Shown: piece by piece, positions 1,326 to 8,612 of the stretch | Layout of the letters: every line of letters begins with the position of its first letter | Numbering within the stretch: position 1 is the stretch's first letter | NCBI GenBank assembly: GCA_011088105.1 | Contig: JAALKI010000007.1 | Location: forward strand, 1-64,000 | Source of the DNA: Nitrospirota bacterium | GTDB taxonomy: Bacteria; Nitrospirota; Nitrospiria; Nitrospirales; UBA8639 | Reading direction: 5' to 3' | DNA: 64,000 bases | Program-made: the position numbers and the translations under genes | Notes under the pieces: generated by a model | Told to the model about the DNA's origin: nothing | The model's input: only the letters and a program-made list of their open reading frames with translations | Database searches by the model: none

Positions 1326-2081
1326 ATGCAGGTGAATCAGGATGTGTTTGCGCTTAACCCGGACCCTCAGGTTCAAGTAGATTATATAGGGCAGGGGAAG
1401 CACAAGGTTGTCATTGCTGACTATTTTTATCAGTACCCTGAAAAAGTCTTGCAACTAGCAATGGGCTTGCCGTATACCGACCGATTTGAAATTGTCGGTA
1501 ATTTTCCAGGTGTTCGGGCTTCGGTTAATGTCGATTCAGCACCGATCATTGCATCCATTAGTCAACTTTGGGGGGCGCCGTTAACCCCATTTTTTACTCC
1601 TCAGCCTGTAGTTTTCCAAGGTATTACAAATAAAGGTTTTCGGCTGAATATTGGCCAGCGTCAACCACATATCGATCAAGATGTTACTGCTATGGTGTAT
1701 ATCAATCCCGCTGAATCGTGTGTTGGGGGAACAGGGTTATTCCGACACACCCCCACAGAGTTGGAACGGGTGCCGATTACTCCAGACCAAGCTATCAGGA
1801 GTTTAGCCGATCGGTTGGAACTGAGTGACGAATTTCTTGAAAGCGCGGAAGGATACGAAAACTTTCAAAACAGCATGATTTTTAATCCGCTGTTTGCCTG
1901 TCGGGAGCCCACATACATCAATGATGGCAATCAGTTCTGGGAATTACTCAAAATGATTGAGATGCGACCTAATCGCTTGATCATTTTTGATGGCCGTTGT
2001 TTCCATTCTCAATACATTCAACCCCACCAGTATACTGAAGCCTTTCGGATTAATCAGATCCTTTATCTTTCTCATACGTAA
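1326..2081 (+). CDS. DUF6445-like protein, putative Fe(II)/2-oxoglutarate oxygenase fold
   Basis: The 251-residue soluble protein has the layout of a 2-oxoglutarate/Fe(II) oxygenase: an H-x-D pair (PHIDQD, around residue 118), a glycine-rich GGTGLFRH strand, a distal histidine (CFHSQYI, around residue 232) and an arginine followed by NQILYL near the end. This arrangement fits the DUF6445 family. The substrate is unknown. A purine-rich GGAAGG lies about 9 bases before the ATG. Its 3' end overlaps the convergent HEAT-repeat gene by 10 bases. The oxygenase fold is inferred from spacing of the H-D...H...R residues. Confidence 0.65.
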   Translation: MQVNQDVFALNPDPQVQVDYIGQGKHKVVIADYFYQYPEKVLQLAMGLPYTDRFEIVGNFPGVRASVNVDSAPIIASISQLWGAPLTPFFTPQPVVFQGITNKGFRLNIGQRQPHIDQDVTAMVYINPAESCVGGTGLFRHTPTELERVPITPDQAIRSLADRLELSDEFLESAEGYENFQNSMIFNPLFACREPTYINDGNQFWELLKMIEMRPNRLIIFDGRCFHSQYIQPHQYTEAFRINQILYLSHT

Positions 2082-5025: not shown

Positions 5026-5712
5026 CTACGATCTAAACATTCGTGTTGTTAAATAGGCATGCTGCATTTCATGAATATCTTGAATCGGTGTCCAGGACTG
5101 CATTTCTTTCTTGGTCTCTGCTTCCCTGCTCACTTGATCGATTATTGGAATAAGATACTCAAGTAATAACTGTCCCTTGTGTTGTCCGATGGACAAGAGT
5201 TTCAGTGAAGCAGAAACGAAACCGACCGTACTTTGATAGAGGTATGCAGCAATCGCGTTCCGCTTATTCCATCCAAATGTTCCAAGTACGAGTCCAACGC
5301 TTATGGCCATATGGCCAGGTGATTGATTCGATTCCACCTTTGAAAGAAACTGACCAAGTAATGGTGGACTATTTGGGGCTGTTCCCGCAATGAGGAGAAC
5401 CTGCTTGCCCATTTGACGACTAGCCAATCGTGTGTCACGGCATAGTTTCATGGCATCAAGTTCATCATCAAGGTGTTGTGCGGTTTGTAGCGTTTGGTCG
5501 AGAGCTGCTCCATGAGCTAATCCAACCGCGACGGCGTCTCGATTTCCCAGTCCTGATCTGAGTAGATCGACAACGTATTCTCTAAGATCTTCCGGAGTAC
5601 AGACGGCGCGTGCTTCCACTGCCGCTTCTAAACCGAACGAAAACGCGTATCCACCTGACGGGAAAAAATTATCAATAAAACGAAATCCCTGGAGAAGAGC
5701 GCTTGTATTCAC
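5026..5712 (-). CDS. ureF: Urease accessory protein UreF
   Basis: UreF bridges UreD and UreG in the urease activation complex and acts on the UreG GTPase cycle. The N-terminal FFPSGGYAFSFGLEAAV segment (~residues 16-32) is the family signature, and the all-helical 228-residue length is normal. The start is GTG at 5712 with a poor ribosome site, so translational coupling to the upstream short ORF (stop 63 bases away) is possible but weak. The stop lies 6 bases before the ureG start, so the two are probably co-translated. Confidence 0.92.
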   Translation of the reverse strand: MNTSALLQGFRFIDNFFPSGGYAFSFGLEAAVEARAVCTPEDLREYVVDLLRSGLGNRDAVAVGLAHGAALDQTLQTAQHLDDELDAMKLCRDTRLASRQMGKQVLLIAGTAPNSPPLLGQFLSKVESNQSPGHMAISVGLVLGTFGWNKRNAIAAYLYQSTVGFVSASLKLLSIGQHKGQLLLEYLIPIIDQVSREAETKKEMQSWTPIQDIHEMQHAYLTTRMFRS

Positions 5713-5775
5713 AGAAGACTGTTCTCTATTCCAGGTGGACTCGAGGGTGCCCCAATTTTAGTAGGGTATTGGTGA

Positions 5776-6015
5776 TTAGTAATTTGGCGCTAATCGATGC
5801 GACTTGTCCACCAACAGCTTTGATAGCGGTAAGATACCGTTGAATGTCCTCCGCGGCTCTTGCCGTTTTGACCCATCTGGTTCAAACGTGAGTTCGCTTA
5901 ACCGCTCTAATTGAGGAATCTTTGCTTTGTAGAGAACGATGGCATGCTTCGCATGGGCTTTGATGGCCTCAGCATAGACACGTTCATCATGCTCAAAGTT
6001 ACCGCTCGGCTGCAT
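5776..6015 (-). CDS. Small ORF between the MBL-fold gene and ureF, function unknown
   Basis: This 79-codon frame begins with ATG overlapping the last 17 bases of the MBL-fold gene and has an AGGAG about 12 bases upstream. The product is charged and helical in its first half (DERVYAEAIKAHAKHAIVLY), without membrane segments or known motifs. I do not recognise it. It could be a genuine coupled small protein, or a C-terminal helical module split from the MBL-fold protein by a frameshift. It occupies a place where some operons carry ureE, but nothing in it resembles UreE. Confidence 0.45.
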   Translation of the reverse strand: MQPSGNFEHDERVYAEAIKAHAKHAIVLYKAKIPQLERLSELTFEPDGSKRQEPRRTFNGILPLSKLLVDKSHRLAPNY

Positions 6016-6796
6016 AAAGGTAATCGACTCCTACTGGAAGATGTCCTATCCAATCAATGTATCGTTCGATTTCCTCTCCACGAAAAATAGCTCCATGTTG
6101 GGGTAAAATGGCTTTAATCTCTAAGTCCTTCAGCTTTTCAAGAAATCCAGTGACCGCTTGATTCGAACTCATATACCGTTGATGGAATCCTTTCATGGCA
6201 ACAACATGGGCATTCCAATCGTCGATGACGAGACGAGGTTTGGCATCTCTATAGAGCGAGGCCCCGATGTCCCCCGTGAACAAGAACCCACTGGCTGAGT
6301 CAAAGACCACCATGCTTCCAGGTGAATGGAGATACGGTGCCGCAAGACACTGGATTTCGCCTTCTTGATGGAGATCAATAACAAGTCCATCGTCACGCAT
6401 CGGCATATAATTAACGTTGTAGGCCATATAATGAGGTAAAAACCTGACCCACAAATGTGAGACGACAACATTCAAGTTTGGATTAAACTCGAGCCATGAG
6501 GGAAGAGAAGCACAGACATCGGGATCTTGATGACTAAAAAACAGATGGGTGATGGCTTCTGCAGATGATACTTGATTCACTTTATCGAGGATTGGGGAAA
6601 AACGGTCGTATCCACCAGGTTCAAGCAGAAATCCTTCTCCTCCATTCACAATGAGGTAACTATTGCATTCAATTTCTTCTCCTCCTGTGTAGATTCCGAC
6701 CCAATAGATTTGATGATGAACATCATCATAGAGTTTGATCGGTTGGGTGTAGTCTGTGTCTTTATTCGATAGACTCATCAATGGGCTTATAGGCAT
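5999..6796 (-). CDS. Metallo-beta-lactamase-fold protein, oxygen-binding diiron (ODP) type
   Basis: The 265-residue protein matches the MBL module of flavodiiron proteins and stand-alone ODP proteins, without the flavodoxin domain. Candidate metal ligands are H89, D91 and D93 (SHQDPDV), H157 (YLHSPGS), D176 (FTGDIG) and H234 (PQHGAIF). The usual H-x-E-x-D is H-x-D-x-D here, and no second histidine follows. ODP proteins have been linked to oxygen or NO sensing and reduction. I start at ATG 6796, preceded by AAGGAGAG; a TTG seven codons earlier is possible. It sits between ureC and ureF, which is unusual for a urease operon. Confidence 0.72.
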   Translation of the reverse strand: MPISPLMSLSNKDTDYTQPIKLYDDVHHQIYWVGIYTGGEEIECNSYLIVNGGEGFLLEPGGYDRFSPILDKVNQVSSAEAITHLFFSHQDPDVCASLPSWLEFNPNLNVVVSHLWVRFLPHYMAYNVNYMPMRDDGLVIDLHQEGEIQCLAAPYLHSPGSMVVFDSASGFLFTGDIGASLYRDAKPRLVIDDWNAHVVAMKGFHQRYMSSNQAVTGFLEKLKDLEIKAILPQHGAIFRGEEIERYIDWIGHLPVGVDYLYAAER

Positions 6797-6884: not shown

Positions 6885-8612
6885 TCAAAAAAGAAAATAT
6901 CGTTGTGCCATAGGTAACTGTGCCATGGGCTTACATGTGAGATGTTCGCCATTGGCTTTCACGATATATGTTTCAGGATCGACGTCAATCTGGGGGGTTG
7001 CATCATTGAGCTTGAGGTCACGCTTACCAATTGTCCGACAATTCCGTACCGCCACCACGCGTTTTTGTAAATGCAGATTCGTATGAACGCCTCGTTCCAA
7101 CCCTGCCTGAGAAAGGAAGGTGAGGCTAGTTGATACAGAAGCTCGACCGAATGCACCAAACATTGGACGGCTTATGACAGGTTGAGGGGTTGGAATAGAC
7201 GCATTGGGATCGCCCATAGCCGCTTCTACCAAAAACCCTCCTTTGAGGATGAGTTCAGGTTTTATGCCAAAGAAGGCAGGGTTCCATATCACAAGATCTG
7301 CTAATTTTCCTACTTCAATTGATCCCACTTCATGGGCAATGCCATGCGTAATAGCAGGGTTGATGGTATATTTAGCGACGTAGCGCTTTGCTCGGAAGTT
7401 GTCATGTGTGCCTTTGGCTTGCTGAATTCCCGTTGAGTTGAGAGTCCCTCGTTGAACTTTCATCTTATGTGCTGTCTGCCAGGTTCGAGTAATCACCTCT
7501 CCGATTCGGCCCATGGCTTGAGAGTCAGAAGACATGATACTGATAGCTCCCATATCATGAAGAATATCTTCTGCGGCAATGGTTTCGCCTCTGATTCGGG
7601 ATTCTGCAAAGGCAATGTCCTCTGGCACGCGAGGATTTAGATGATGACAAACCATCAACATATCCAGATGCTCATCAATGGTATTCACGGTAAACGGCAT
7701 GCTCGGGTTTGTCGAGGATGGTAAAACATTGGCTTCTCCACAGACCCGAATGATATCAGGCGCATGCCCACCTCCGGCCCCTTCAGTGTGAAACGTATGA
7801 ATGGTTCGTCCTCCAAATGCCCGGATGCTATCTTCTACGAATCCCGCTTCGTTTAATGTATCCGTGTGAATGGCCACTTGTATGTCGTATTGATCTGCTA
7901 CATCTAAACAGCGAGAAATTGCTGCTGGTGTCGTTCCCCAATCTTCATGTAATTTAAGACCAATCACACCAGCTTCAACTTGTTCTTCTAAGGCTTCGGG
8001 TAGAGAAGCATTGCCTTTACCAAAAAACCCGAGATTGATGGGAAACCCATCTGCGGCTTCCAACATTCGGCTGATATTCCAAGGACCAGGCGTACATGTT
8101 GTGGCATTGGTCCCGGTCGCCGGACCCGTTCCACCACCAAGCAACGTGGTCATTCCCGAAGCCAATGCCTCAGGAATCAATTGAGGGCAGATAAAGTGTA
8201 CATGGCTCTCTACACCGCCGGCTGTGATAATTTTCCCTTCACCCGCAATGACTTCGGTGCCAGGGCCGACTTCCATCCCTGGTGTGACGCCTGCCATGAT
8301 ATCCGGATTGCCGGCTTTTCCGATGGCGACAATATATCCGTTACGAATACCAATGTCGCCTTTCACGATCCCCCAATAGTCGAGAATGATGGCGTTGGTG
8401 ATAACCAGATCAAGTGCGTTACGTGCACTCGTTGCAGCCGGGGATTGCCCCATGCCGTCACGAATGACTTTGCCACCACCGAACTTCGCCTCTTCTCCTG
8501 GGGTGGTCAGGTCTTGCTCGACTTCAATGATCAGTTCCGTGTCTGCAAGCCGAACACGGTCTCCAACTGTGGGGCCATACAGATCAGCATATTGACGACG
8601 AGGAATGTTCAT
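6885..8612 (-). CDS. ureC: Urease alpha (catalytic) subunit UreC
   Basis: UreC holds the dinuclear nickel centre that hydrolyses urea to ammonia and carbamate. All expected residues are visible: H137 and H139 (SHVHFICPQ), K220 for carbamylation with H222 (GLKLHEDWG), H249 ([11 protein letters not shown]), H275 ([13 protein letters not shown]), the flap C322-H323 (LMVCHHL) and D363 ([13 protein letters not shown]). The length of 575 residues is normal. AGGAG sits close upstream of the ATG. It follows ureB by 30 bases and is predicted to be fully active if nickel is supplied. Confidence 0.98.

Follow-up and report, generated by a model that had tools for sequence, protein, structure and literature searches.

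Why does the urease operon of a Nitrospirales bacterium carry an MBL-fold protein and an overlapping small open reading frame (ORF) between ureC and ureF? This question is raised by a 64,000-nucleotide stretch of contig JAALKI010000007.1 (assembly GCA_011088105.1), hereafter the window. It comes from a genome of 2.6 Mb in 70 contigs that is the sole representative of its genus in our comparison set. The answer we favor, with fair rather than high confidence, is that the insert is a Nitrospirales cassette of an oxygen-binding diiron protein (ODP) and a small partner that either moved into one lineage's urease operon or was retained there. As such, it would be a partly decayed sensor and no part of the urease maturation machinery.

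Layout of the operon and its insert

The urease unit lies on the minus strand in the order urtB-C-D-E, ureA, ureB, ureC, insert, ureF, ureG, and ureD (Table 1), and in gene content and order it resembles the urtABCDE-ureABC-ureFGD clusters of other Nitrospirales. None of the window's ten urt and ure genes between urtB and ureD inclusive is interrupted, which indicates that the assembly is not frameshift-ridden in general, as judged from the contigs rather than from raw reads. Insert and operon have the same GC content, so the arrival of the insert was not very recent. Target-site duplications and terminal repeats that could mark entry by a mobile element were looked for around the insert, and none was convincing. 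A scan of the same region for promoters and terminators gave hits at chance level only. On position, the pair would be co-transcribed with ureFGD.

Two further features of the window lie on the opposite strand. An Rfam match to the 5' ureB sRNA (RF02514, 80.6 bits) is found at 8168-8466 (+), antisense to ureC; it is probably explained by conservation of the urease coding sequence and is no proof of an antisense RNA. A DUF6445 protein (PF20043) is encoded at 1326-2081 (+), just past the HEAT-repeat gene downstream of ureD.

Table 1. Features of the insert and its flanking genes, in window coordinates
Feature	Position	Strand	Evidence or remark
ureC	6885..8612	-	TIGR01792, 6e-290; flanks insert upstream, 88 bp gap
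ODP (oxygen-binding diiron protein), stand-alone MBL domain, 265 aa	5999..6796	-	PF19583, PDB, AlphaFold
HxDPD motif (H89, D91, D93), diiron ligands	6518..6532	-	Position and alignment
H157, diiron ligand	6326..6328	-	Position and alignment
D176, bridging-ligand position	6269..6271	-	Position and alignment
H234, diiron ligand	6095..6097	-	Position and alignment
Small partner gene, first part, frame 0, residues 1-50 (MQPSG...PDGSK)	5866..6015	-	Profile match 5866-5976 (profile 4-40, E 6.4e-7)
Frameshift site TCA AAA CGG, one base short	5863..5871	-	Relatives: TCG AAT ACG / AGC AAC ACG / ACG AAT ACG
Small partner gene, second part, -1 frame (TARAAEDIQRYLTAIKAVGG...HPRVHLE*)	5726..5869	-	Profile match 5735-5872 (profile 39-84, E 3.8e-11), translation, third-position bias
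Out-of-frame tail of the 79-codon ORF, not conserved protein	5776..5865	-	No similarity to relatives in this frame
ureF	5026..5712	-	PF01730, 4.6e-31; flanks insert downstream, starts 13 bp past the -1 frame stop

The oxygen-binding diiron protein

The MBL-fold ORF that the initial annotation placed between ureC and ureF was recovered as described, with 265 codons running from an ATG at 6796 to 5999 on the minus strand and a GGAGA upstream of the start. Its product matches PF19583 over the whole length of the model with 223 bits (cut-off 27.2; E 4.1e-66) and is the single match to this family in its own genome. Domain searches returned only ODP and Lactamase_B matches, with neither a flavodoxin nor a rubredoxin domain. 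The nearest solved sequences are PDB entries 6qrq (2.3e-59) and 6qnm (1e-55), and 6qwo is also among the nearest structures. An AlphaFold model (pLDDT 89.9) aligns to 6qrq_B with TM scores of 0.87/0.92 and to the solved ODPs overall with scores of 0.81-0.94, above any flavodiiron protein. These best structural matches are the Thermotoga and Treponema ODP chemotaxis sensors, and the modeled fold is that of the solved ODPs. All six residues that had been assigned to flavodiiron-like positions (H89, D91, D93, H157, D176, and H234) are found at those positions and are invariant across 14 aligned sequences. The assignment to the flavodiiron/ODP group was thereby borne out, and it can be narrowed to ODP by the lack of a flavodoxin domain and by the nearest structures.

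Among known proteins, the closest likeness is to the ODPs of Treponema denticola (TDE2498; 6qnm, 6r9n) and Thermotoga maritima (6qrq, 6qwo), which share the stand-alone MBL domain with its HxDPD...H...D...H pattern and likewise have no flavodoxin. However, coupling is to an MCP homolog in Treponema, whereas the ODP of the window is coupled to an orphan small protein within a ure operon. The flavodiiron proteins (FprA, flavorubredoxin) have the diiron MBL domain and ligand positions in common with the window ODP but differ from it in carrying flavodoxin or rubredoxin domains, and identity in structural alignments is only ~15-24%. Between the window ODP and its relatives, dN is 0.27-0.32 and dS is saturated. 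From its sequence the protein looks intact and conserved, and the ODP, at least, has therefore probably remained in use, which counts against decay of the pair; it would be expected to bind iron and O2.

The small partner gene and its frameshift

The overlapping ORF of 79 codons (5776-6015, minus strand) starts within the last codons of the ODP gene. While the overlap seen in the initial annotation stands, at 17 bases, the ORF is not a complete gene, as it is broken by a frameshift. A profile built from only the three intact relatives, which come from the Nitrospirales genomes G070, G150, and G222, matches the window in two pieces that abut and lie in two frames (Table 1). The window product is like its relatives up to PDGSK (residue 50), after which the -1 frame carries on as TARAAEDIQRYLTAIKAVGGQVASISAKLLITNTLLKLGHPRVHLE to a stop at 5726, 13 bases before ureF. 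A search with the 79-aa product itself gave three convincing remote matches, in which only residues 10-52 are covered. Whether the small ORF is conserved as protein has a divided answer: the intact homologs (84-85 aa in all three genomes) are under purifying selection, with an NG86 dN/dS of 0.10-0.15, while the 79-aa ORF ends in 29 residues (QEPRRTF...APNY) that are read out of frame. Where the window and the relatives differ, changes cluster at third codon positions, in the first half as in the second when each half is read in its own frame, so selection acted on the second half in the -1 frame until recently.

Together, the two-frame profile match and the third-position bias point to one missing base, lost either by the organism itself or during assembly. 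The break is best explained by an indel or an assembly error, recoding being less likely. Of these we infer decay of the small partner rather than assembly error, from a single assembly in which the break could itself be an error. Alternatively, programmed -1 recoding at A-AAA-C could yield the small protein at full length. The shift does sit on a run of four A, and the -1 frame is open to its end with codon-like constraint. Even so, we hold recoding to be very unlikely, as the frame is uninterrupted in the three relatives, which have no A run at this place, and the canonical X-XXY-YYZ heptamer is absent.

The earlier statement that the small ORF has no recognized family was upheld by searches of Pfam, NCBIfam, PHROGs, and the PDB (by sequence and by fold), none of which gave a convincing match. 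Its AlphaFold model is weak (pLDDT 65, with three sequences in the alignment). Apparent matches to WD40 designs were rejected as products of the repeated PDG motif. In a profile search the small protein was found in only 4 of the 270 genomes of the class, and searches of plasmids and IMG/VR returned no relatives.

The pair in other Nitrospirales

The ODP and small gene are kept as a pair in three other Nitrospirales genomes, G070, G150, and G222, in each case away from the ure genes. The small gene follows a homologous ODP after 42 bases in G070 and after 21 bases in G150. In G222 a contig ends within the ODP and the small gene opens another contig, so that the two would be adjacent across the break. 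The window ODP groups with these three pair-linked ODPs in a tree (support 82/91), a grouping of moderate support that is not conclusive. Homologs of a LuxR-type (GerE) regulator adjoin the pair in all three relatives; in G070 and G150 they diverge from the ODP, whereas the one in G222 converges on the small gene. Each of the three relatives also has a fatty-acid desaturase close by, and two have a Crp/FNR-type regulator.

The LuxR alignment had three usable rows; the longest open frame of a further locus, L140, is an unrelated glycosidase-like protein and was uninformative. The regulators in these rows (L096:5871-6611, L089:4881-5678, and L100:544-1386) share a conserved N-terminal domain that contains the stretch C-P-F-G...C...GGIAADQFGYAKVC; the G070 protein has a sub-threshold match to MetOD1. 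It is possible that this Cys-containing domain is a metal- or ligand-binding sensor domain. A search of the window's own genome for the LuxR partner found no full-length relative, only helix-turn-helix matches.

Other ODP neighborhoods vary. PAS histidine kinases lie beside the ODP in G226, a chemotaxis gene overlaps the ODP in Pseudoalteromonas, and several ODPs are without any regulator neighbor. Signal-transduction genes are absent from beside the ODP in the window, whereas regulators adjoin it in G070, G150, G222, and G226. G150 has two ODP genes within 4 kb (L089:5782-10400), with genes for a redoxin, an FGE-sulfatase-like protein, and an NHL-repeat protein in between. Contig CAADGJ010000124.1 (L013) bears the title 'uncultured Nitrosospira sp. 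isolate NOB2', but its reverse complement is identical to L092 (G097:C124); as G097 belongs to the window's own order, the organism name of this contig looks wrong.

Relation to urease

Among 236 Nitrospirales genomes, ureC is present in 134, and matches to the ODP model, weak flavodiiron-like ones included, are present in at least 136. Proximity was judged by comparing listed coordinates, and among the matches listed the only strong ODP match near ureC is that of the window. Elsewhere the nearest ODP on the same contig as ureC is ~180 kb away (G148), again among the matches listed. Twenty ure clusters were fetched for inspection, 18 of which show both ureC and ureF; of the other two, one is truncated where its contig ends and the second has no ureFGD in the stretch. 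In 16 of the 20, ureF lies within ~220 bases of ureC. G035 and G047, which have a different cluster type, show a gap of ~0.8 kb with no ODP or small-protein match in it. In contrast to the window, none of the 18 clusters has the pair between ureC and ureF, so a conserved ureC-MBL-smallORF-ureF order is not a feature of these related operons. With the pair missing from these clusters and no other strong ODP near ureC, the coupling of ureolysis to oxygen or nitrogen oxide status that the initial annotation had suggested finds no support; absence of the pair from related urease operons is what that annotation had itself named as refuting. The urease placement looks like a single-lineage event without functional support, and a role of the pair in urease is unlikely.

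It could still be argued that recruitment of the pair made ureolysis or urea uptake dependent on oxygen, iron, or NO status, with an O2-sensing ODP that affects either the maturation of urease or ureFGD transcription. The placement is precise in an otherwise tight operon, a promoter of the insert's own is not clear, the ODP is intact, and the GC content speaks against a very recent arrival. However, this arrangement occurs in one genome of the 236, among the matches listed, and in none of the 18 inspected clusters, the small partner is frameshifted, and a full-length LuxR partner was not found in the same genome; we therefore consider recruitment unlikely. A second urease-related role, that of the ODP or the small protein as a nickel metallochaperone replacing UreE, takes its appeal from the absence of ureE. 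This absence was noted correctly at the outset, with no UreE_N match in the cluster or in the genome assembly, and neither insert protein matches UreE. UreE is, however, absent from most Nitrospirales, which keep ureFGD (PMC12342949), so its absence here needs no substitute, and the ure clusters inspected in that order carry no ODP. The metallochaperone proposal is thus left unsupported. The ODP site is also the H-x-D-x-D diiron type of O2-binding proteins, and the relatives keep the pair away from their ure genes, which makes replacement of UreE extremely improbable.

A putative oxygen sensor

Few protein oxygen sensors with a non-haem diiron site are known, and ODPs are among them. The ODP is most likely a sensor of O2 and iron: by analogy with the Thermotoga and Treponema proteins, its diiron site would take up Fe(II) and O2, and the protein would change state. 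In the relatives, the signal would then most plausibly pass through the small helical partner to the adjacent LuxR-type regulator, which would tune oxygen-linked genes such as the desaturase. The tie between the small protein and the LuxR-type regulator is putative and is drawn from the neighbor genes in the relatives. In the window lineage, the frameshifted partner and the want of a full-length LuxR relative in the same genome suggest that the pair is probably a sensor in partial decay. A sensing role fits what has been published on ODPs, which are described as sensors that signal transduction has recruited (PMC7319448, PMC7666581).

As a possible analog, PqsE-RhlR also sets an MBL-fold protein beside a LuxR-type regulator, the arrangement that the relatives' neighbor genes suggest, and PqsE and PqsE-RhlR are among the weaker fold matches of the ODP model. 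PqsE belongs to a different MBL family, though, the LuxR-type proteins of the relatives have no match to an autoinducer-binding domain, and no LuxR is present in the window.

The ODP could instead be an enzyme, an O2/NO reductase or scavenger served by an unnamed electron donor, since its ligand set is common to flavodiiron proteins and a peroxo-diiron ODP structure is known (6r9n). This too seems unlikely, as the flavodoxin and rubredoxin domains are absent, the closest structures are sensors, and the neighbors in the relatives are regulators. A bolder form of the sensor reading is that the ODP, its ~85-aa helical partner, and the LuxR-type regulator form, in nitrite oxidizers, an O2/iron-sensing unit that can move between regulons, and that in the window lineage this unit, placed in the urease operon, ties urea use to oxygen status, the partner being intact in the living organism and the frameshift an assembly error. 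We regard this combination as rather improbable.

On our preferred reading, that of a partly decayed sensor cassette, the urease placement is not to be read as evidence for oxygen control of ureolysis. The part worth following is the ODP-small protein-LuxR cassette, which is previously undescribed and of modest novelty. That relatives among the nitrite oxidizers conserve the ODP and small protein next to LuxR-type and Crp/FNR-type regulators suggests a signaling route other than chemotaxis, and three concrete genomes (G070, G150, and G222) are now available for testing it. The window's own genome also has a chemosensory cluster on another contig (L147:4529-12054, C36), which encodes a Tll0287-like protein, a short MCP (244 aa), CheW, CheA with a receiver, CheB, and a receiver-guanylate cyclase. 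As a matter of speculation, this cluster, with its single short MCP, might be another output of the ODP.
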